From Pseudobdellovibrionaceae bacterium (GTDB lineage: Bacteria; Bdellovibrionota; Bdellovibrionia; Bdellovibrionales; Bdellovibrionaceae), in assembly GCA_016785955.1 (NCBI GenBank), contig JAEUWH010000087.1:1-64000 (forward strand): a stretch of DNA of 64,000 nucleotides. The letters are read 5' to 3'. The notes beneath the pieces were generated by a model. It worked only from the letters and a program-made list of their open reading frames with translations, ran no database searches and was not told the DNA's origin. Position 1 is the stretch's first letter. Each line of letters opens with the position of its first letter. The translations under genes were made by a program, and so were the position numbers. This document shows positions 6,612 through 64,000 of the stretch, one piece after another.

Positions 6612-6911
6612 ATGAGTAAAGAAGTTGGTGTACGACCTTTACACGACCGTATTTTGGTAAAACGTGTAGCTGAAGAAGAAAAAACTGCGGGTGGATTGTT
6701 TATTCCCGATACAGCAAAAGAAAAACCTCAACGTGGCCAAATCGTTGCCACTGGAAAAGGCCGAGTGACTGAAGATGGAAAAATTTTGCCTCTAGAAGTT
6801 AAAGCGGGCGACAAAATTCTTTTCAGCAAATACGCAGGTACAGAATTGAAATTTGATGGAACCGAGTATTTGATGATGCGTGAAGAAGACATTCTTGGAA
6901 TTATTAATTAA
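6612..6911 (+). CDS. groES: Co-chaperonin GroES
   Basis: A full-length 99-residue GroES. The start [19 protein letters not shown] is the family's first strand, [19 protein letters not shown] contains the mobile loop that docks on GroEL, and the C-terminal part [17 protein letters not shown]...[10 protein letters not shown] matches the rest of the beta-barrel. GroES heptamers cap GroEL so that substrate proteins can fold in the closed cavity. An AGGAGG ribosome binding site precedes ATG. groEL follows after 62 bp in the same operon. Confidence 0.98.
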
Positions 6912-6952
6912 TGTAGTGCCAACGGTACTACAAAAAAATTAGAAAATATTGA

Positions 6953-8608
<1,656 letters not shown>

Positions 8609-8639
8609 TTCTTTCGAACTACTTTATTTTGGTCCTTAC

Positions 8640-8670
8640 AAAGGGTCGGTCAAAAGCCGGCCCTTTTTAT
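8640..8670 (+). terminator. Terminator of groESL
   Basis: AAAGGGTCGG pairs with CCGGCCCTTT (one G-U) around a 7-nt loop, followed by TTTTTAT. A smaller hairpin (GTAGTTC/GAACTAC with TTTATTTT) at 8605-8622 precedes it. Confidence 0.8.
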
Positions 8671-8904
8671 TTCCCTAGGTCTTTTTGTGTCGTTACCAAC
8701 CTATCTATGTCTTTTTGTAGTGGAAGAAAACTGAAACTTCCTTGTTCGGGGCCTGTTCCAAAAGCTCTTTTTTGAAGAAGCTATTTTGAAAAGGCTTCTT
8801 AAATTATAAATGGTGGGACCTCTGGAAAAAAATAGCCGGCTTTTGAAGAGCATTTGGGAAAAGCAAATAGTCTTTGACAGTCCATTGAGTTAATTTATTG
8901 GATT

Positions 8905-13460: not shown

Positions 13461-14954
13461 CTATTTAACCAGTGTTAGGCCTGGCAGATTTTTGGTTTCG
13501 TCGTACGCTGTGAAGTCTTCCAAGCTGGCGATCGGCGTTGTGCAATACTGAATCGCATAGTGTGCGGACGGTCGATCATTTCCCGACTTGCCCAACCCAC
13601 CAAATGGCAACTTCGAACTGGCACCATTGGTCGTGCGATTCCAATTCAATAATCCAACTTTGGCATCGATCAGCGCTTGTTGATATAAAGCCTTATTCTT
13701 TGTAAAGAGGGCCATAACCAAACCATACCCGGTTGAGTTCACAATATTCAATGTCTCATCGAAATCATTAACGGTGTAAATGGCAACATTAGGACCAAAG
13801 ATTTCGCTCTTTTGGTAGATCGATTTCGGATCAAATTTCTTCACTAAATGAATCGACGGTGTCACATAGTAGCCTTTAGTTTTTAAATCTAAAGATTTTC
13901 CACGCATCATCGATTCGCAATTCTCGCGATTCGCAATTTCTTGAAAGCGAATATATTTTTCAACCGCGGCGGCGTTAATCAAAGGCCCCATAAACGGGTT
14001 TTCTGACCAGTGACCAATTGTTAGTTTTTTAGCTGACTGGTAAAAACGCTCGATAAAATTATCAGCGATTTTTTGATGAACAAAAATACGGCTTGTGCCT
14101 GAACAACGTTGGCCCGAAGACAAATACGCTCCGGTCAATGTTTCGTAAATGGCTTTATCCATGTCGGCGTCATCCCAAATCACCGTGGAATTTTTTCCGC
14201 CCATTTCGAGCGCTAAAATTTTCCAGTAGTGAGTCATCGTCTCTTGTTTGATTTTTAAACCCACTTCGTATGATCCCGTGAACAAAATTCCGTCGACATT
14301 TTCATGAGAAACTAATCGTCGTCCGGATTCGCCATCGCCTTGAACCATATTGAATACGCCCTCAGGAAATTGCGCTTTTTCAAAAATTTCTGCGTACAAT
14401 TGTCCAACGTACGGTGTTTGCTCTGAAGGTTTGAATACAATGGTGTTGCCAGCGTACAGAGCAGGAATAATATGGCCGTTTGGTAAATGGGCCGGAAAAT
14501 TAAACGGACCAATCACCGACATCACGCCGCGAGATTTATGACGAATAACACCATCTACCTGAGGCAGCGCTTGTGGGATAACTTCCTCTTGAATCAGCTT
14601 GCTGGAAAAATTCATGGTGATATCGATTTTTCCGACCAAAGCTTTTGCCTCGGTTGTCGAATCCCATAATGGCTTTCCCGTATCGCGCGCGATGGCTTTG
14701 GCGATCTCGGCTTCATGAGAAATAAATAATTCTTTTAAGCGGGAAAGGTACTCTTTGCGAGTCTCAATCGGTGTATGCGCCCATTTCTTGTAGGCTTTTT
14801 GAGCGGACATGACAGCTTCGTCTATGTGATCATGGCGAAACGGAACCGTCATCACCAGATCTGATAAATCAGCGGGAGAAATGTCTTTGAACTCGCCATC
14901 TTTTTTTTCTGCTTTAACGAATCGACCATTGATAAAGTCGCCTTTGTAGCTCAT
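13461..14954 (-). CDS. astD: Succinylglutamate semialdehyde dehydrogenase-like (AstD)
   Basis: A 497-residue NAD(P)-dependent aldehyde dehydrogenase. The family-specific segment GPFNFPAHLPNGHIIPAL (about 149-166) matches AstD, which oxidises N-succinylglutamate semialdehyde to N-succinylglutamate. Catalytic residues are in place: E250 (ALEMGGKN) and C284 (GQRCSGTSR). AAAGGACAG precedes the ATG. It is fourth in a leftward run after the aminotransferase, M20 peptidase and astA, which supports the same pathway. Confidence 0.88.
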   Translation of the reverse strand: MSYKGDFINGRFVKAEKKDGEFKDISPADLSDLVMTVPFRHDHIDEAVMSAQKAYKKWAHTPIETRKEYLSRLKELFISHEAEIAKAIARDTGKPLWDSTTEAKALVGKIDITMNFSSKLIQEEVIPQALPQVDGVIRHKSRGVMSVIGPFNFPAHLPNGHIIPALYAGNTIVFKPSEQTPYVGQLYAEIFEKAQFPEGVFNMVQGDGESGRRLVSHENVDGILFTGSYEVGLKIKQETMTHYWKILALEMGGKNSTVIWDDADMDKAIYETLTGAYLSSGQRCSGTSRIFVHQKIADNFIERFYQSAKKLTIGHWSENPFMGPLINAAAVEKYIRFQEIANRENCESMMRGKSLDLKTKGYYVTPSIHLVKKFDPKSIYQKSEIFGPNVAIYTVNDFDETLNIVNSTGYGLVMALFTKNKALYQQALIDAKVGLLNWNRTTNGASSKLPFGGLGKSGNDRPSAHYAIQYCTTPIASLEDFTAYDETKNLPGLTLVK

Positions 14955-14967
14955 ATCTGTCCTTTCG

Positions 14968-15990
14968 CTATTTTTCTAAATCAAAAGGTGCGACGAACAC
15001 CTCTTGATCTGTGTCTATCTCTAAAAGATCTCGTACTTTCGGTGGAATGGCAATTTCGTCTTGCCTTTGGTCGCAGGCGACGACCATAGCACGAAAATTA
15101 GTACCGGGTGTGCCAATAAATTTTCTACCTTGAAACTTGGGGTCTTTAAACTCAGCTAACCGCGCAAACTTACCTTTTTTAATAGGCAAAATATCTGTGG
15201 TTTTGCAGCCATAGTGAGGGCCACCATCAAAAGGATCGACTTCGTCAAGATATGTAAAGCCAATTGATTCTAGCAGATGCTGAGCTGGCTTGGTGGCTTC
15301 GCCCACTCGACCAAGTACCAAACGTGCCTTTGCATCAAGTAAACACAAATAAATATCGTCTTCGGGAAACAAGCTCTGTATAAATTCTTTGTGCGTTTGG
15401 CTCAGCATATCGGCTTCTTGATAGGGAAGACCAGTGAATCGACGTCCCAGCGCTTCCCAGAACTCGCTGCGGCCTTCCTCTGTTAATGGTGGCGTAAGTT
15501 CACAAAGAACACGATCTTGGAAGCGGTCTTGATTTAATCCCATATAAATAAACCGGGCTAGACTGATTTGTTTTCCTAGTTTTTCCGGACGACGACGGTA
15601 ACCTTTATCCACCAATAAACCTCCAATTTCAGTTGGTCCATCGGTGTCTAATTGAAAACGGAGAACTTGGTGGATAAACCCAGTTCCTAAATCTTCAGAG
15701 AAATGATTACGCTTTAGGATTTTGAAAAAATAATGAGGAATGTCATCGCTACCATGTTTGGCCAAAATCAACGAGCTTCCCATAACAGCTTGTTCTTCTA
15801 AATCTTCTAAAACAAATAAATATTCGGATTTATGTTTCGGCAGCTGCCCGCTGAAGGACTGCAAGCTGGTTTCCACTTTTTGAGTCATGACTTTTTTGTC
15901 GCCGGGCAGATTTAATAAATTGAATTGTTTCGCTAAATCCACCAATTGGTTGATATCGGTGGTTTTCGCTGGTCGTACTATAAAACTCAT
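14968..15990 (-). CDS. astA: Arginine/ornithine N-succinyltransferase (AstA-like)
   Basis: A 340-residue AstA-family acyltransferase that transfers a succinyl group from succinyl-CoA to the alpha-amine of arginine (or ornithine in some members). Family features include IVRPAKTTDINQLVDLA at the start, the central IGGLLVDKGYRRRPEKLGK acyl-CoA loop, and the C-terminal PFDGGPHYGCKT. The ATG used has AAAGG eight bases upstream and overlaps the stop of the M20 gene as ATGA, showing coupled translation. No astB (succinylarginine dihydrolase) is visible nearby. Confidence 0.88.
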   Translation of the reverse strand: MSFIVRPAKTTDINQLVDLAKQFNLLNLPGDKKVMTQKVETSLQSFSGQLPKHKSEYLFVLEDLEEQAVMGSSLILAKHGSDDIPHYFFKILKRNHFSEDLGTGFIHQVLRFQLDTDGPTEIGGLLVDKGYRRRPEKLGKQISLARFIYMGLNQDRFQDRVLCELTPPLTEEGRSEFWEALGRRFTGLPYQEADMLSQTHKEFIQSLFPEDDIYLCLLDAKARLVLGRVGEATKPAQHLLESIGFTYLDEVDPFDGGPHYGCKTTDILPIKKGKFARLAEFKDPKFQGRKFIGTPGTNFRAMVVACDQRQDEIAIPPKVRDLLEIDTDQEVFVAPFDLEK

Positions 15991-17333
15991 AAACAAAACC
16001 TTTCTATGACTTTAGTGTAAAATACCGTGGCTTTTTCTAGGTCATCTACGGAAACGTGTTCATTCGGTGTGTGGATATTATTTTCGCGTAAACCAGGCCC
16101 AAAGCAAAGACAATCCACTTTCAATCGAGCAATCAAGCTGGATTCATTGGTGGATGACAAAGATGTTAAATTGCTGGGTAGATTCATATCGTTTAAAATA
16201 TCACGACAGCCCTTGGTAAATATTGAACTCTCTGACGAGCTAAACGGTTTTTTATAATCGGTAATACGAAACTGACTTCCATTCTGAGAGCACGATTGTC
16301 GCAGAAAATCCATCCACTTTTCAAAAACTTCTTGTGTTATCGAAGGAAGAATGCGGCAGCTACCACTCATCAAGATGTGATCGGCGTGTGTACGAATTAA
16401 CCCAATGTTCAGCGTGGGGTACTCGGGCGAGTACCCAGTATCGGTATGATTTCTAAACTCACTTTCTAGTTGCTTGATCGCTTTGTAGATAGACTTAATT
16501 TTTGAATTCACAGGGTTTTCCACCGAGGTGAAATCAAGCTCTAGAAAGGCGTGACTAGGAACTGTATTGTAGTTGGTCCCACCGTCGATTTCCATGATTG
16601 CAACACTTTCGGGAACCATTTCTAAATACGAAAGCATTTTTAAAATGGCGCTGTCCCCCAAGTGTGGGTGCGACGAATGCGCTGAAACGCCATGGAACAC
16701 TTTACTTTGTGTGGATGTACTTTCGCGTAAATTGTGATCGTTGCGATATTTTATTTCTTCCTGCGCAAAAGGAATAATAATTTCGACACTGACAAAGCCT
16801 TTTGCGGCGTTCGCAAGACGGAGATTAGTTGGCTCGCCTATTAAGGCAAACTTGGGGTTTATTCTATTTTTACGAATTAATTTTAAACATCCGGTCATCC
16901 CCGTTTCCTCACCGAACGTGCCCACCAAAACAGGCGCCAGCTTAAATTTAGATTTATGACCAGCTACCGCAGCCATCGCCCGTGCTTTACATAAGAAATC
17001 CAGTTTTACGTCTGCGGCTCCAAGGCCATAAATTTTATTGTCGACAATGGTGGCATCAAAAGGATTATTTCCAGTGACTGACCACAAATGAAATGGGCCG
17101 GGATCCACAGTATCTAAATGATTTTGTAAAAGCAGTTCTAAATCCTGACGCTCGGCCTGATGGCGCACAATAATATTAGCTTCTTCCCCCAGCGGAGAGG
17201 ATTCAATCTGTTCCTCGACATGAAGACCTAGCGAGCGACAGAACTTGGCCGCAAATTCGGCGGCCTTACGAGAGCCTTGAGTAGGAGTGCTATCAATCGA
17301 GATAAATTCCCTGCAGGATTGAACAAATTCCAT
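15987..17333 (-). CDS. M20 family metallopeptidase (deacylase)
   Basis: A 448-residue M20/ArgE-DapE type zinc hydrolase. Metal ligands are visible: the NHLDTVD motif (H and D), GAADVK, GEE (catalytic and metal-binding glutamates) and GEPTN. The dimerisation domain with GVSAHSSHPHLG follows. In this setting it probably removes the succinyl group from N-succinylglutamate or a related intermediate, replacing the unrelated M14-type AstE; that is inferred from position. Alternative activities are acetylornithine or succinyl-diaminopimelate deacylation. The ATG lies just after the aminotransferase stop; an in-frame TTG would add three residues. Confidence 0.8.
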   Translation of the reverse strand: MEFVQSCREFISIDSTPTQGSRKAAEFAAKFCRSLGLHVEEQIESSPLGEEANIIVRHQAERQDLELLLQNHLDTVDPGPFHLWSVTGNNPFDATIVDNKIYGLGAADVKLDFLCKARAMAAVAGHKSKFKLAPVLVGTFGEETGMTGCLKLIRKNRINPKFALIGEPTNLRLANAAKGFVSVEIIIPFAQEEIKYRNDHNLRESTSTQSKVFHGVSAHSSHPHLGDSAILKMLSYLEMVPESVAIMEIDGGTNYNTVPSHAFLELDFTSVENPVNSKIKSIYKAIKQLESEFRNHTDTGYSPEYPTLNIGLIRTHADHILMSGSCRILPSITQEVFEKWMDFLRQSCSQNGSQFRITDYKKPFSSSESSIFTKGCRDILNDMNLPSNLTSLSSTNESSLIARLKVDCLCFGPGLRENNIHTPNEHVSVDDLEKATVFYTKVIERFCL

Positions 17334-17342
17334 AGACGACAA

Positions 17343-18722
17343 TTAAGCCACACCTTCTTGTAATGTTTTTTCAATTACACTGAGGGCGACTTGGATATCT
17401 GCATCTTGAATACACGCCGGAACCAAAAAGCGCGCGCGCACGGGATCTTTTCCACAAGGAAATCCAATGACACCATTGTTGTATAATTTTTTTAGGAATA
17501 CGTCGACCTGCTCTTTTTTTCCTTCAAACGGAGTGAAGGCTAGCATTAAACCCATTCCACAAGCATCTGAAACTTTTCCTTGGCATGTCGTCGCGCCTAG
17601 TTTTTCGAGCCCACTGATAAATTGACTGTGAATTTGCATAATACGACCATCTTTTCCCAGATAGCCCTCGTTCACCAACATATCTAACATTTCCATCCCC
17701 GTATGCATAGATACAGTGGATCCCGAAAATGTGCCCGCAATCAAACCTGGTTTGGGATTGTATTCTTCGGTGTAAAGAGTCGCACCTAACTGGGCCGTTT
17801 TGGCGATAGTAACCAAATCAATGTACTTGCCGATGTCTAAAGTCTCGAACGCGAATAGCTCGCCCGTGCGAGTAAAGGTTTGCACTTCGTCTGCCCAGAT
17901 CGCAATACCTTGAGATTTACAAAACTCTAAAAGAGGAACAAAAAACTCACGATTAGCCGGCATGTAGCCACCCTCGCCCAGCATCGGTTCGAAGCCAAAC
18001 ACGCTGATGTTTTTTGCGTGCTTCTCGACATGTTCTTTTAAGGCGCGTAAAGATTTATCGGTTGATTGTGGGTCTTTGCGATCAAAAAATGGAATGCGTA
18101 GAACTTCGTTGTAATCGGGTAGACCTTGTTTGTAGGCGGGATTATCGGTGACTTCAGCCATCATTGTTGATCGACCTGCAAATGCATTTTTGAATCCCAA
18201 AATCATTCGTGCTGGCGATTTTTTCTGACGAGACAGTTTTAAGGCATTTTCATTAGCCATCGTCCCGCATGTGGCAAGCCATGCGTATTTGATGTTGCTT
18301 TTTTTAGAAGCTAATTCGACCAGCTTTTTTGTGTATGCAACATATTCTTTGTTTGGTTCAAGATTACCTTGAATCACTACGTCCATAATCGCCCCCTTGA
18401 GGGCCGCTTTGATTACGCGTGGATGAGAATGGCCAAACAAATGAATGCCTATGCCATTAATCAAATCTAATTTTATGCTACCATCTTCTAATTCAACATA
18501 AGGTCCGCGACCAGCGCCACTGCCCATGTACGGGTAATGAAGGGGGCGACCTCGAAACTGACCCGCAAGGTCCATCCACTTTTTTCCATTTTCTTGAAAT
18601 TCATTGGCCGGGGCTTTAATACCGGTCAATTGCTGGTTTGTTTTTTCAACCTCGGTTGTTAAATCTTGAATAAGCTGATTGATTTTTTGTGAGGAAAGTA
18701 ATTGTTGTCCGATTAATGGCAT
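17343..18722 (-). CDS. Class III aminotransferase (succinylornithine transaminase role likely)
   Basis: A 459-residue fold-type I PLP enzyme. The phosphate-contacting turn around TCGTMANENALKLSR, D278 (IWADEVQT) and the PLP lysine K308 (TIAKTAQLGAT) are visible. The overall sequence is closer to lysine 6-aminotransferase or ornithine-type class III enzymes than to canonical AstC. With astA and astD downstream it probably transaminates N-succinylornithine to the semialdehyde. AAGGAATC precedes the ATG. First gene of the leftward run; 170 bp separates it from a divergent gene. Confidence 0.85.
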   Translation of the reverse strand: MPLIGQQLLSSQKINQLIQDLTTEVEKTNQQLTGIKAPANEFQENGKKWMDLAGQFRGRPLHYPYMGSGAGRGPYVELEDGSIKLDLINGIGIHLFGHSHPRVIKAALKGAIMDVVIQGNLEPNKEYVAYTKKLVELASKKSNIKYAWLATCGTMANENALKLSRQKKSPARMILGFKNAFAGRSTMMAEVTDNPAYKQGLPDYNEVLRIPFFDRKDPQSTDKSLRALKEHVEKHAKNISVFGFEPMLGEGGYMPANREFFVPLLEFCKSQGIAIWADEVQTFTRTGELFAFETLDIGKYIDLVTIAKTAQLGATLYTEEYNPKPGLIAGTFSGSTVSMHTGMEMLDMLVNEGYLGKDGRIMQIHSQFISGLEKLGATTCQGKVSDACGMGLMLAFTPFEGKKEQVDVFLKKLYNNGVIGFPCGKDPVRARFLVPACIQDADIQVALSVIEKTLQEGVA

Positions 18723-57700: not shown

Positions 57701-58876
57701 ATGGCATCTTCATTAGATTTATGGATTGAATATATATTAAGATTTTCACATTTAGTGGCTGGGATTTCCTGGATCGGTAGCTCTTTTTATTTTATCTGGC
57801 TTGACAGCAGTTTTTTGCCGCCAGAAAAATCTCGTCGGAATGTAGAGGGCGAAGTTTTCATGGTGCATGGTGGTTTTTACTATCAAGTAGACAAAAAGAA
57901 AATTTTTCCGGGGGAAATTCCTAAAATACTTCATTGGTTCAAATGGGAAGCCACTCTTACTTGGATAACGGGATTTTTTCTTTTTGCGTTTTTATATTAT
58001 TTAAAAGGCGCCAGTCTTTTGATTGACCAACAAAAGGTAGCACTGTCGCAAGGGCAAGCGATTGGCTTAAGTATAGGTTTGGTGATTGGTTGTTGGTTAT
58101 TATATGATTTAATTTGGAATGCGAGCATCGTAAAATCCAAAATTACCAGTGTGATTTTATCGCTGCTGGGGTTTGTGGGTCTGGTGTACAGCTCGGTTCA
58201 AATTTTTAGTGGGCGTGGTGCATTCATATTGGTTGGCGTAATCATGGGCAGTTTAATGCTGTTAAATGTGTGGGTACGTATCCTGCCTGGTCAGGCGAAG
58301 ATGCTACGTGAGGCAACGGCGGGACAGATCCCTGATTATTCGGTGAGTTTAAAATCCAAGATTAGATCAGTCCACAATACATATTTTATTTTTCCAGTAC
58401 TGTTTATCATGCTTAGCAATCATTATCCTTTAATATACAATCATCACTGGAATTGGATACTGCTGATTATCCTCAGCGTTTCCGGAGCACTGGTTCGTCA
58501 TGCAATGGTCACTAAAAGCGCGAACGAGCGTTGGACTTTATTGCCGGCCAGTGTAGGCTTGATGGCGTTAGTGTTTGTGACGGCCCATGCCCCGGCTGTC
58601 GAAAAACTGAATCATACAGCTGTAACCGCTCTCGACTCTGCACAGGTGCGCGTGATTATTGATACCCGATGTGTTCGTTGCCATGCCACCCATAATACGG
58701 ACGAAAATTTTAAAGTGGCTGGTAAAAATGTTATTCTGGAAACTGAAGAGCAAATTAGACAGCATAAAGATATGATGATTAAACAAGTCGAGTCCAAAGT
58801 AATGCCGTTGGGAAACCTGACTCAGATGACCGACGAAGAGCGAGCCAGTCTATTAGACTATCTTCGAAAGCTATAG
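57701..58876 (+). CDS. puuD: PuuD-type membrane urate oxidase with cytochrome c domain
   Basis: A 391-residue integral membrane protein with about eight helices in the urate hydroxylase PuuD fold. Characteristic segments are RFSHLVAGISWIGSSFYFIW, MVHGGFYYQVDKKK and LHWFKWEATLTWITGF. The C-terminal part (about 310-391) is a cytochrome c domain with a haem site CVRCH and distal MPLGN methionine. PuuD oxidises urate to 5-hydroxyisourate and passes electrons to cytochrome c. Full domain set suggests activity. It lies upstream of a fusion protein carrying further urate-degradation domains, supporting a purine-catabolic role. Confidence 0.85.
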   Translation: MASSLDLWIEYILRFSHLVAGISWIGSSFYFIWLDSSFLPPEKSRRNVEGEVFMVHGGFYYQVDKKKIFPGEIPKILHWFKWEATLTWITGFFLFAFLYYLKGASLLIDQQKVALSQGQAIGLSIGLVIGCWLLYDLIWNASIVKSKITSVILSLLGFVGLVYSSVQIFSGRGAFILVGVIMGSLMLLNVWVRILPGQAKMLREATAGQIPDYSVSLKSKIRSVHNTYFIFPVLFIMLSNHYPLIYNHHWNWILLIILSVSGALVRHAMVTKSANERWTLLPASVGLMALVFVTAHAPAVEKLNHTAVTALDSAQVRVIIDTRCVRCHATHNTDENFKVAGKNVILETEEQIRQHKDMMIKQVESKVMPLGNLTQMTDEERASLLDYLRKL

Positions 58877-58936: not shown

Positions 58937-60532
58937 GTGCGAACATTATTTTTAGTAATTGTTTTATTTTTAAATGCTAGATCCCATTCTGAGGAAATTA
59001 AACTGCTTCGCATGGGTATGGTTGGCGAGCCGGCGACGTTGAACCCAGTTTTTCGCTCGTCCAGTGAAGAAGGGCTCATCAATGCGCTGGCCCTGCGTAG
59101 TTTATCTCACTTTAATGCGCACAGCGAACTAGTTCCCCATATCGCGATCAAAGAACCCAAATTTGTAGGCAATGAGTTAATTTTTGAAATCAAAAAAGAA
59201 GCCAGGTGGGGCGACGGTGTACCCATGACGTGTGAAGATTTCAATACCGGAAACTCGGCGGCGCTAAAGTTCCACGTTGAATCAGAGACAAAGATTGTGC
59301 GTATTGCTTCGTTTCCGGGATTTCCACAACAATGCCGAGTGATGTTTAGGATAAAAAAACCAATCTACACTTTGTATTTGGCACAGCCGTTGCCATCGCA
59401 TATCGAGAGTCGAATCGTAAATCAATCAAAGGATATAGAAGAATATCTGAAAAGAACGATGTATTCGACTAAACCCATGACGCCAGGATTATATAACGGT
59501 CCGTATATTTTGTCTTTGTATATGCCCGGTTCCCACCTGGAATATACTCGCAACCCGTTGTTCTATGGTCACACTTCACGAATCGAAAAAATTCAAGTTC
59601 GCATATTTAAAGATTTTCAAGGTATGCTGAATGCATTCCGCACACAAGAAATCGATATGATGATGCAAGGAGTTCCGTCTTCTCGAGTCAAAGAAATTCA
59701 AAAAATAATTGATGAAAAAAATTGGCCTTATCGGGTGGTTTCACGTGATATTACGAAATTAACTCATTTAGTATTCAATTTGGAAAGTCCGAACGTAAAG
59801 GATGTACGTGTTCGTCGTGCTTTAAGTATGATGATTGATGTGAAAGAATTCAAAGATGTGGTAAATGGAAACGGAACGTTGACTGGCAGTTTGGCGCATC
59901 CTTTAGATCCTATTTTCTTGAAGCAATACACGAGGCCTTTATACAAGTTAGACCGCAAGAAAGCCATGTCGCTACTGAAGGAAGCGGGGTTTACTAGAAA
60001 TTCTGAAAACAAACTGGTAGGCAGCAGTGGGAAACAGCTAGAGATCCGGTTACACTTCAATTCAGAGAATCCCGATCGCGAAGATGTCGCCATGTACTTG
60101 GAAAATAAGTGGAGCTCCCTGGGAATTAATGTTTCCATTAAAAAGAGTCTAAAGCGTGTATTAATGGGCGAATATTTAAAGAAGGGTAATTATGATGTCG
60201 CCGTTTTTGGTTGGTCACAACCGAAACTACAAATCAATTTAGATTTTTTTACATCTCAGGCCATTCCCACGGAGGCCAACAAATGGATTGGCTATAACTA
60301 TGCACGTTGGAACAATCTAAAAGTAGATCAGGAAATGACCAAAGCGGATGCCGAGTTTGAAATCAGCGGGATAAAAAAACATATGGATGCTTTTCAAAAA
60401 GAGTTTCGTGAGGATCTTCCGTGGTTGCCACTGTATTTTCAAGATCGTATCGTCGTTGTTCCCAAATACTTGAAAAGTTTTGAAATTTTTCCCGACTGGG
60501 AAGCTGAAACTTATTCTATCGAGAATTGGTAA
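58937..60532 (+). CDS. Orphan solute-binding protein (family 5, peptide-type)
   Basis: A 531-residue extracytoplasmic solute-binding protein. Signal peptide (about 1-18) leads into MVGEPATLNPVFR, the SBP_bac_5 signature region, with YNGPYILSLYMPGSHLEYTRNPLF and VFNLESPNVKDVRVRRALSM in the middle. Such proteins bind peptides, nickel or other oligo-substrates for ABC importers. No permease or ATPase gene is next to it. It lies between PuuD and the urate-degradation fusion; a transport role for that pathway would be inference. Start is GTG. Confidence 0.8.
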   Translation: MRTLFLVIVLFLNARSHSEEIKLLRMGMVGEPATLNPVFRSSSEEGLINALALRSLSHFNAHSELVPHIAIKEPKFVGNELIFEIKKEARWGDGVPMTCEDFNTGNSAALKFHVESETKIVRIASFPGFPQQCRVMFRIKKPIYTLYLAQPLPSHIESRIVNQSKDIEEYLKRTMYSTKPMTPGLYNGPYILSLYMPGSHLEYTRNPLFYGHTSRIEKIQVRIFKDFQGMLNAFRTQEIDMMMQGVPSSRVKEIQKIIDEKNWPYRVVSRDITKLTHLVFNLESPNVKDVRVRRALSMMIDVKEFKDVVNGNGTLTGSLAHPLDPIFLKQYTRPLYKLDRKKAMSLLKEAGFTRNSENKLVGSSGKQLEIRLHFNSENPDREDVAMYLENKWSSLGINVSIKKSLKRVLMGEYLKKGNYDVAVFGWSQPKLQINLDFFTSQAIPTEANKWIGYNYARWNNLKVDQEMTKADAEFEISGIKKHMDAFQKEFREDLPWLPLYFQDRIVVVPKYLKSFEIFPDWEAETYSIENW

Positions 60533-60548: not shown

Positions 60549-63500
60549 CTAGTAGACAAGTACGCGATGAATGCCACCGTCAGGGTATACTTTCACCCGG
60601 ATTTGATCAAATTTGTGTTTTGTTTGTATGCGAAATTCTTTCCTATTTCCGGCGAAAGCTTTTACTGCTGTTTTCGGCGCCAATTCGAGCCACTGTCCAT
60701 CTTTCAAAGCATCGATACTGATTGCCGAGGGGTTGTTATTAACGAAATATTTGAAGTCAAAAATCACAGATTGAATTGGCAAAGCTTGACCTAATTTTAG
60801 TACGATTTCTTCGAAGTGCCCAGGTGTGCGGCTGCGGGCGGATTCAAATCCGTCAAACATGTGAATAGGCGGGAATGGAGAAATCACTTGAGCCACGGGT
60901 CCGTAGTGCTGATTGCTGACGCTGACAACAGAGCCGCCAAATGCCGCAGAGGCTTGATTAATTGGTTTTCCATTTTGATTCAGGCGTGCAATGTTTTTTG
61001 TAATTTCCGTTGGGGTAGGATTGTACGTGATTGTAAGTGGCTTATGTGATTTTGGGATGACTTCATTAAAACGAATGCTGCAGGCTTCGTCCCATTTCTT
61101 AAAATGGACCGAGGTGTTTGCGGGTAGTTCCGAATACAGCCCTAACCTGGATAAACCGCCATCAGGAAATACGTGTACTTTAATTTTTTTATACGATTTT
61201 TCACTGAGGAGCGCGTCTTGTTTAACTTGCAATAGACCATGGCCCACAAGTGTTTTTTTAGGTAGTAGCAAATCCCAAATATTTTTTTGCGAGTCGTAAC
61301 CAAATATTTCAATACTCTCGACCTGGTTTCCATCATGATACTTAGTCGATACTTGAATATAACGAATGGGACCGGCTTTACGCATCTCAAATTCCATAGT
61401 GTGTAAAAGTGCCTCGTTATGGCGTTCGGATTCCCAGCTGTCCATCACCTTACCTTGAGCGCAAAATAGTTGTGGATCAAAAACTGGTTCAAAGGAACTG
61501 AGCAGGTTTTCGGCTCGTGCAAAACGTTCAGCAGTGACACTCAATATTTTTGCATCCACAGCTAAATTAAATGGGGCGAGTGGATCTTTAGGTCCCTTTT
61601 CAAAAATTGGATCGGGCCGGCATGGTTGAAAGGCATCAAAAATTAAATTTTTGTAACCACGATTTACGATCTGTTCCTGAGCAACTTGCTGGAAGTCAAA
61701 CTGAGAACGAAACATTTCAGTGCGTACACCGCTGAAGCCCAGTGTTTTAAGCAGCATTTGTGCGATTTCAGCAATAAATGCTATGGCCGCGTTATCCCCA
61801 TTTGCAAAAATAACAAAGCCTTTACCTTGATCCGGACCTACAAAGCAGTGCAAGAATAGCGCGCGAAAACCTTCGTTAGCGCCTTGGTGAACGGCAATTT
61901 TATTCTCGCCCGCTTCGGCAATGAAAACACCAAGCCCCATGCGCGTACCCATGAACTCGACACTGCCCTTATCTTTTCCATGCAGCATAGTCATTGCTGT
62001 GTCGTGGGAAATCGGACCGCATCCTTGAATGTCTTGATAAGCGCGCGTGAGGCTATTTAGAAACATTGCCATGTCCTGGGCAGAGCCCATTGCACCAGCC
62101 GCAAACGCGGGAAAAATCAATCGGCTTGAAGGTACTTCCTTTTGCTCATCAAAGTATCCAGTTGCATAGTGTTTACCAGGAATATTTTTTTGTTGAAACG
62201 TCAAATTAGAAAGGCCGAGTTTCTTAAAAAACGTTGTGGTGATATCAGAAATTGATTTTTTCTCGAGGCATTCAATTAGATACTCCAACACTAAAAATCC
62301 GCCACCGGAATAGCTAAACTGAGTGCCCGGCTTATTAATTACCGAGATATCTTTTAGAATCTGCGGCCATTCAGGAATCGATTGGTCCAGCGGGTAACCA
62401 TTTACATAGTGCCCACTTAAAGCTGTGTGATTAAGCAAGTGTTCAATTTGCACGGCATCTGAACTTAAACGAAATGAGGAGCCGGCTTTTGCCAACAATG
62501 AATTCACGGAGGTTTCGAGTGGAATATTTTTGTCTTTGAAATATTCCAAACAAAATGCACTGGCAATGGGTTTACTTAACGAAGCAATTTCAAATAATGT
62601 ATTGTCTTGAACGACATCTTGCCCCAGGCAGGCATGTCCAAAAGATAAAGCTTGTGTTTCATTGTCAGAATTAATTGCTATGCTGGCGCCGGTGATCTTG
62701 TGTCCAGTCAAAAGTTGCGTGACTGCATTTTTGAAATTGTCTGATGGATTTCCAGTAAGGCGTTTGTGAGTTATGTCCCACAGGGCTTCCCGCGCAGCGG
62801 TCATTTCTTGGTCGCGACTTTGCTGTAAACGATTTTTAAGTATTGTCAGCAGTTCCTGTGCGGTTTTATTTTTTGCAGAAACTAAAAATTTAAAACCAAA
62901 TTTTTTTTTGTATTGGTTCCCCAGATCCAAAAGTTCTTGGCGTGTGACTTCATCGCTGCCGAAGACGTTTTGTTGTTCAGAAGCGGCTTGGGCATCCAGG
63001 GTTTTCTTGGCCTCGCCAATATCGCCGTGAAAAGACGCTGACTCTAGAAGTTCGTCTAAAGAGAATCCAAGTATAGTCTTTTTGGCCAAGTCCAAATCTA
63101 AAATCGGACCGCGGGCCATTGTTTTTGCAAAATTTAAACTGCCGCAGGCTTCGAAATAATAATTTAGTCGTTCGACGTGCTTAGGCAGCTGATAGTGCCG
63201 AGGCGTTAGTTCATTGACCGTTTTCCAAGGATCTTCAGATTTTCGAATAGATTCAATGGTAAATGGTAATAACAATTCGGACGCAAACTCCACGGGATTC
63301 TTGTCGGTCATTAATTGCAGCATGATTTTCAGGGCGATAGGATACCATTTGGCCGTGTCGTTCGTATATTTAACTTGAACAAGTTTATCCGGCCTAGACA
63401 AATCTTTTCTGATAAAATGCATTTCTTGATGTACGATCTTGATAAACTCGTCGATTGGAAATCTGCCATGATATAGCTCGTGCCACACTTCCCACCTCGA

Positions 63501-64000
63501 ACGCTCTGCCGTTGCGAGATCGTCCATTACTCTAACGGAAACGCCGTTAACATGTGCGGGCAGAGCGACACAGCCATTTCCGCAAAGCCAATCTGTCAAA
63601 TATTGGAGTGATTGAAATACATTGTATCTAATTTCCTCAGGATGATTGTTCGCGATAAAATCTGATTCTTTGATATCTGCGACAATGAGCGAGCGGACAA
63701 AATTTTTATCAGTGCTTTTTAAACCTTCAATATCAGGTCCATGAATAAAGTTTAAGATAGCAGAGTGATGCTCGGGCAAAAGAAGCTGTTTTACAAGTTC
63801 TTCTAGGCCACCAGATTGACCGTTTCTATGTTGTCTCCAGCCTTCAACCAGAGCGATACCTAGACGTACAAAATCGGGGTGGGCGACCCAAAATCCAGAC
63901 AGATCACGCTTCATTTGCGTGATGACATCTTTGAAAAAACCAACCAAAGTCATCTGAAATGAAGGCGAGTATGGATCGGAATCTAGTGGCAGAATACCGT
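60549..64000 (-). CDS. Malate synthase - UraD - serine hydrolase - allantoicase fusion (partial, N-terminus off window)
   Basis: The frame is open to the right edge, so the N-terminus is missing. Numbering from the first visible ATG (63953): residues 1-245 match the C-terminal part of malate synthase A (GFWVAHPDFV; DWLCGNGCVALP; MDDLATAERSR with the likely catalytic Asp145). Residues about 246-400 match OHCU decarboxylase UraD (His309, SEQ 325-327, YKKKFGFKF). Residues about 401-745 are a beta-lactamase-fold serine hydrolase (SLSK with Ser458/Lys461, YSG at 548, HQG at 689). Residues about 765-1134 are an allantoicase with two repeats (VMDSWESERHN; PDGG at 930; FGGSVVSVSNQHYGP; FDGFESARSRTPGH; PDGG at 1124). 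Malate synthase condenses glyoxylate and acetyl-CoA; allantoicase yields ureidoglycolate and urea. Confidence 0.8.
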   Translation of the reverse strand, partial: GILPLDSDPYSPSFQMTLVGFFKDVITQMKRDLSGFWVAHPDFVRLGIALVEGWRQHRNGQSGGLEELVKQLLLPEHHSAILNFIHGPDIEGLKSTDKNFVRSLIVADIKESDFIANNHPEEIRYNVFQSLQYLTDWLCGNGCVALPAHVNGVSVRVMDDLATAERSRWEVWHELYHGRFPIDEFIKIVHQEMHFIRKDLSRPDKLVQVKYTNDTAKWYPIALKIMLQLMTDKNPVEFASELLLPFTIESIRKSEDPWKTVNELTPRHYQLPKHVERLNYYFEACGSLNFAKTMARGPILDLDLAKKTILGFSLDELLESASFHGDIGEAKKTLDAQAASEQQNVFGSDEVTRQELLDLGNQYKKKFGFKFLVSAKNKTAQELLTILKNRLQQSRDQEMTAAREALWDITHKRLTGNPSDNFKNAVTQLLTGHKITGASIAINSDNETQALSFGHACLGQDVVQDNTLFEIASLSKPIASAFCLEYFKDKNIPLETSVNSLLAKAGSSFRLSSDAVQIEHLLNHTALSGHYVNGYPLDQSIPEWPQILKDISVINKPGTQFSYSGGGFLVLEYLIECLEKKSISDITTTFFKKLGLSNLTFQQKNIPGKHYATGYFDEQKEVPSSRLIFPAFAAGAMGSAQDMAMFLNSLTRAYQDIQGCGPISHDTAMTMLHGKDKGSVEFMGTRMGLGVFIAEAGENKIAVHQGANEGFRALFLHCFVGPDQGKGFVIFANGDNAAIAFIAEIAQMLLKTLGFSGVRTEMFRSQFDFQQVAQEQIVNRGYKNLIFDAFQPCRPDPIFEKGPKDPLAPFNLAVDAKILSVTAERFARAENLLSSFEPVFDPQLFCAQGKVMDSWESERHNEALLHTMEFEMRKAGPIRYIQVSTKYHDGNQVESIEIFGYDSQKNIWDLLLPKKTLVGHGLLQVKQDALLSEKSYKKIKVHVFPDGGLSRLGLYSELPANTSVHFKKWDEACSIRFNEVIPKSHKPLTITYNPTPTEITKNIARLNQNGKPINQASAAFGGSVVSVSNQHYGPVAQVISPFPPIHMFDGFESARSRTPGHFEEIVLKLGQALPIQSVIFDFKYFVNNNPSAISIDALKDGQWLELAPKTAVKAFAGNRKEFRIQTKHKFDQIRVKVYPDGGIHRVLVY

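Follow-up and report, generated by a model that had tools for sequence, protein, structure and literature searches.

Does a single gene in a member of the Bdellovibrionota really join four enzymes of uric-acid breakdown and, if so, which part of it carries out the allantoinase step for which no known enzyme is apparent? We examined a 64,000-nt window, comprising the first 64 kb of a 178-kb contig (Pseudobdellovibrionaceae bacterium, JAEUWH010000087.1), in which a sequence-only reading had described malate synthase, UraD, a serine beta-lactamase-type hydrolase and allantoicase in one open frame. The frame runs without a stop beyond the window end, and on the contig it is a complete ORF of 1554 codons starting with ATG, the N-terminal ~405 residues of its product being encoded outside the window (Table 1).

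A Pfam search of the full protein detected, in this order and all above their gathering scores, the malate synthase (MS) TIM barrel (PF01274; 1.1e-18, 67.6 bits vs a cut-off of 26.4) and MS C-terminal domain (2.1e-8), OHCU decarboxylase (UraD; PF09349, residues 710-819; 2.1e-20, 74.2 bits vs 24), a serine beta-lactamase-fold domain (BLA; PF00144, residues 827-1141; 2e-27, 96.7 bits vs 27) and two stretches of allantoicase (ALC; PF03561; 1e-42, 146 bits). The UraD match covers profile positions 41-154, so that the first ~40 positions are unmatched, and the ALC repeats align with yeast allantoicase (1sg3/1o59; 5e-43). NCBIfam models agreed, but with scores below the equivalog cut-offs for malate synthase A (MSA; TIGR01344, 124 vs 594.5 bits), UraD and allantoicase (TIGR02961, 157.7 vs 277.9 bits), so all are diverged members of their families. 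The BLA domain falls far below the cut-off for class C beta-lactamases (50.7 vs 415 bits), which led us to reject a true antibiotic-resistance enzyme of this class. The four domain assignments of the sequence-only reading, the single-gene fusion and its proposed route from urate to the TCA cycle are supported; that reading left the BLA domain unassigned and noted that one allantoinase step was missing.

Table 1. Coordinates of the fusion gene, its domains and other features (contig and window numbering coincide; loci designated L are regions retrieved from other genomes).
Sequence	Position	Strand	Feature	Details
Contig	60549-65213	-	Complete fusion gene	1554 aa; ATG at 65213
Window	60549-64000	-	Fusion gene, part inside the window	Residues ~406-1554
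Window	63858-64000	-	MS TIM barrel, part inside the window	Residues 240-452; catalytic R239, E324 and D352 lie beyond the window
Window	63285-63638	-	MS C-terminal domain	Residues 526-643; catalytic-base Asp D565 in MDDLATAE
Window	62751-63146	-	UraD (OHCU decarboxylase) domain	Residues ~690-821; H729, E746, R795
Window	61734-62744	-	Serine beta-lactamase-fold domain (proposed allantoinase)	Residues ~824-1160; S878-x-x-K881, Y968-S-G, H1109-x-G1111
Window	61128-61553	-	Allantoicase repeat 1	
Window	60549-60938	-	Allantoicase repeat 2 and gene end	
Window	58937-60532		Family-5 solute-binding protein (peptide/nickel type)	Between PuuD and the fusion; convergent to the fusion
Window	57701-58876	+	PuuD-type membrane urate oxidase	Urate_ox_N, 391 aa; C-terminal CxxCH haem motif; convergent to the fusion
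Window	13461-18722		Cluster resembling the arginine succinyltransferase pathway	astD-like, astA-like, an M20 peptidase and an aminotransferase; by eye from translations only
L040	12824-14410		PuuD, for comparison with the PuuD of the window	
L226	10651-12036	+	DUF6986 protein (PF22484)	Last gene of a classical urate operon
L044	5682-7025	-	DUF6986 protein (PF22484)	Last gene of a classical urate operon
L046	3350-6367	+	Malate synthase-isocitrate lyase fusion (MS then ICL)	1005 aa; relative of the same family
L218 (with L219, L221)	6874-8727	+	Genus g114: separate AllB-UraD fusion, single-repeat allantoicase-like protein, class-V aminotransferase next to BLA-ALC	In L221 also an AllA-type ureidoglycolate lyase

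The fusion gene lies in a tight operon, downstream of xdhA, xdhB, xdhC and a transthyretin-family HIU hydrolase gene that ends 9 bases before the fusion starts; a cytidine-deaminase-family gene, which by sequence resemblance looks like guanine deaminase, precedes xdhA. Together with the neighbouring PuuD, whose product makes the HIU of the pathway, hypoxanthine/xanthine to urate to HIU to OHCU is covered by separate genes (functions inferred from family), and the fusion takes over at OHCU. PuuD comes in a short (~390 aa) and a long (~530-570 aa) form in fusion loci, the window having the short one. In the two closest relatives the spot of the solute-binding protein gene holds an unrelated short gene.

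To ask whether the frame could be an assembly or frameshift artefact joining separate genes, we searched for orthologues in independent assemblies. Among 141 genomes of the order, seven relatives carry the fusion at 55-73% identity, six of them at full length and one cut at a contig end. A scan of 84,980 species genomes with the BLA domain gave 80 loci, in 67 of which all four domains occur in the order MS-UraD-BLA-ALC in one frame of at least 1,400 codons; ten are cut by contig ends and three are interrupted, one by a frameshift (L079) and two by an in-frame stop (L118 and L135). Despite these three interrupted relatives, the conservation of the four-domain frame excludes an artefact. Most of the loci also carry HIU hydrolase and PuuD, and many carry Xdh genes. 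In a tree of these sequences, 14, of which 12 are labelled Planctomycetota, form one fully supported group, with Bdellovibrionota and a few others making up the rest, although labels of metagenome-assembled genomes may be wrong (for example, a 'Chitinophaga' falls inside the planctomycete group).

The presumed catalytic residues of MS, UraD and BLA are invariant in all full-length proteins (68/68). These include R239, E324, D352 and D565 of MS, mapped by alignment to the established catalytic residues Arg166, Glu250, Asp278 and Asp447 of E. coli MSA (AceB; 3cuz/3cv2), and H729, E746 and R795 of UraD, aligned with solved UraD. S878, K881, Y968, H1109 and G1111 of the BLA domain are invariant in these 68 fusions and in 77 BLA domains. 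The YSG and HQG motifs were partly used to retrieve the 80 loci, which biases the invariance of those two motifs; 18 fusions chosen from an allantoicase search also keep them, but 15 of these are the same genomes.

An allantoinase is required between UraD, which makes allantoin, and allantoicase, which uses allantoate. Using the models for the two known kinds, AllB (TIGR03178) and PuuE (TIGR03212), we found no AllB over cut-off and no PuuE in the genome carrying the window, the only AllB homologue being a PRK09060-type dihydroorotase (649 bits vs a cut-off of 482). Across the phylum, 96 of 369 genomes have allantoicase. In all genomes with stand-alone allantoicase only (25/25), a recognised allantoinase was found: AllB over cut-off in 22, a truncated AllB in two (G335 and G407) and PuuE in one (G302). 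In contrast, none of the genomes of the fused class (0/61; 8 in the own order and 53 elsewhere, a few of the latter being assigned by allantoicase score or cut by contig ends) has either enzyme (p = 3e-22, Fisher, ignoring phylogeny), and neither do 50 named carriers, an overlapping set that reaches Planctomycetota. Many of these genomes are metagenome-assembled, so the absences rest on many independent bins rather than on closed genomes. The two states are interleaved, with both occurring within single genera (g146 and g158).

The operons show a corresponding substitution. In classical genomes the genes run PuuD-AllB-allantoicase-UraD-HIUH-DUF6986, whereas the fused version keeps PuuD and HIUH and supplies MS, UraD, BLA and ALC, so that AllB corresponds to BLA and DUF6986 to MS. 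DUF6986 (572-587 bits in the two proteins scanned; also in L209, L210 and L212-L216) weakly resembles malate synthase/HpcH TIM barrels and is a candidate glyoxylate-consuming enzyme; we found no mention of it in the open-access papers searched. Stand-alone copies of the BLA domain next to unfused UraD or ALC genes were looked for and not found outside genus g114 and contig-end fragments.

Interestingly, genus g114 is an exception that provides a natural experiment. Of its three genomes, G311 has an AllB-UraD fusion protein (508 bits to AllB) and G312 a contig-edge AllB fragment, while AllB was not found in G313, which is 68% complete. These genomes carry a BLA-ALC protein and, in G311 and G312, a separate MS. 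The catalytic Tyr of the BLA domain is Phe (FSGGG) in G312 and G313, and HQG has become HHA in all three, while SxxK remains where the sequence covers it. Loss of the catalytic Tyr in a genus that has AllB is what an allantoinase function of BLA predicts, although this is a single lineage, with only two genomes for the Tyr.

An alternative is that a dihydroorotase or D-hydantoinase encoded elsewhere opens allantoin, and that BLA is a structural module or an unrelated esterase or peptidase. Fused genomes indeed encode dihydroorotases and some (e.g., G076) a D-hydantoinase, which are homologous to AllB and could supply the activity. However, at least 25 fused-class genomes have nothing above ~140 bits to the allantoinase model, and the three examined are dihydroorotase-like; classical genomes keep AllB in addition to such enzymes, and the invariance of SxxK, Tyr and HxG argues for catalysis. 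We therefore regard this alternative as unlikely. It is similarly doubtful that BLA acts instead on ureidoglycolate, as a serine hydrolase or lyase giving glyoxylate, with allantoin opened by another enzyme. No AllA-type ureidoglycolate lyase was found in the genome carrying the window or in any fused-class genome examined, so that step also lacks a known enzyme, but AllA is missing as well from 22 of the 25 classical genomes, which keep AllB or PuuE, so AllA seems dispensable while allantoinase is not. In addition, ureidoglycolate is itself described as a substrate of allantoicase (title of Gravenmade 1970, cited in PMC4016543), and the decay of BLA tracks AllB.

We next asked whether the MS domain might have been repurposed, for example as a ureidoglycolate lyase or another acyl-CoA/glyoxylate condensing enzyme that does not make malate. 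It is far from canonical MSA, the family model not certifying its activity, and it is an extra copy, since the genome has a separate MS next to isocitrate lyase (in a relative of the same family these two are fused, and similar ~1000-codon frames occur in the genomes G006, G028 and G081). Yet the invariance of the four residues aligned with those of E. coli MSA, and the presence of another malate-synthase-like TIM-barrel protein, DUF6986, in the classical cluster of the same phylum, make such repurposing improbable.

The structure predicted by AlphaFold2 for the BLA domain (mean pLDDT 95.4) matches IS11 esterase (7spn), DD-peptidases including R61, D-amino acid amidase (2efu), LACTB and class C beta-lactamases at ~20% identity (Z 33-36), matches that show fold kinship only and not substrate. 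These enzymes share the SxxK, Tyr and HxG machinery, but here the domain is fused inside a catabolic polypeptide and the proposed substrate is a hydantoin. UraD-BLA-ALC modelled together gave a pLDDT of 92.6 and a pTM of 0.90, suggesting a defined arrangement.

Taken together, these results make it likely that BLA is a serine-nucleophile allantoinase, a strong inference that rests on comparative evidence without a biochemical test, and that the protein carries OHCU to glyoxylate and on to malate. In the mechanism we infer, UraD decarboxylates OHCU to (S)-allantoin; Ser878, with Lys881 and Tyr968 as general base and acid, attacks the C4 carbonyl of the hydantoin, ring opening leaving a tethered ureide as a beta-lactam nitrogen stays tethered; and the diureidoacetyl-enzyme is hydrolysed to allantoate. 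The ALC repeats would then release urea and ureidoglycolate, which breaks down to glyoxylate and a second urea spontaneously or by allantoicase side activity, and MS would condense glyoxylate with acetyl-CoA to malate. AllB/DAL1 is a metal-dependent TIM-barrel enzyme of the amidohydrolase superfamily, and no amidohydrolase family occurred among the Pfam and NCBIfam hits of the fusion; only functional equivalence is proposed; the polysaccharide-deacetylase-like PuuE, of a different fold, is a precedent for a non-orthologous allantoinase next to UraD. BLA would probably be a third, metal-independent class of allantoinase using acyl-serine chemistry, embedded in a single polypeptide with intermediates passed between domains and spread between Bdellovibrionota and Planctomycetota. 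The pathway is known, and PuuD itself was found by similar gene-association logic (PMC4562309), but the architecture and the proposed enzyme class appear new: we found neither such a fusion nor a beta-lactamase-fold allantoinase in the open-access literature, although a prior description in subscription journals or preprints cannot be excluded, and chemistry on allantoin is not established for this fold.

If correct, this assignment would propose a new enzyme class for a textbook step, would show the serine beta-lactamase fold opening a natural non-lactam cyclic amide in primary metabolism, and would supply a natural multi-enzyme chain, with at least four activities on one chain, for studying substrate channelling. 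Automated annotation could label such proteins as beta-lactamase or malate synthase. For the Bdellovibrionota, a phylum rich in predators of other bacteria whose prey nucleic acids are a likely purine source, it would close a gap in purine catabolism.
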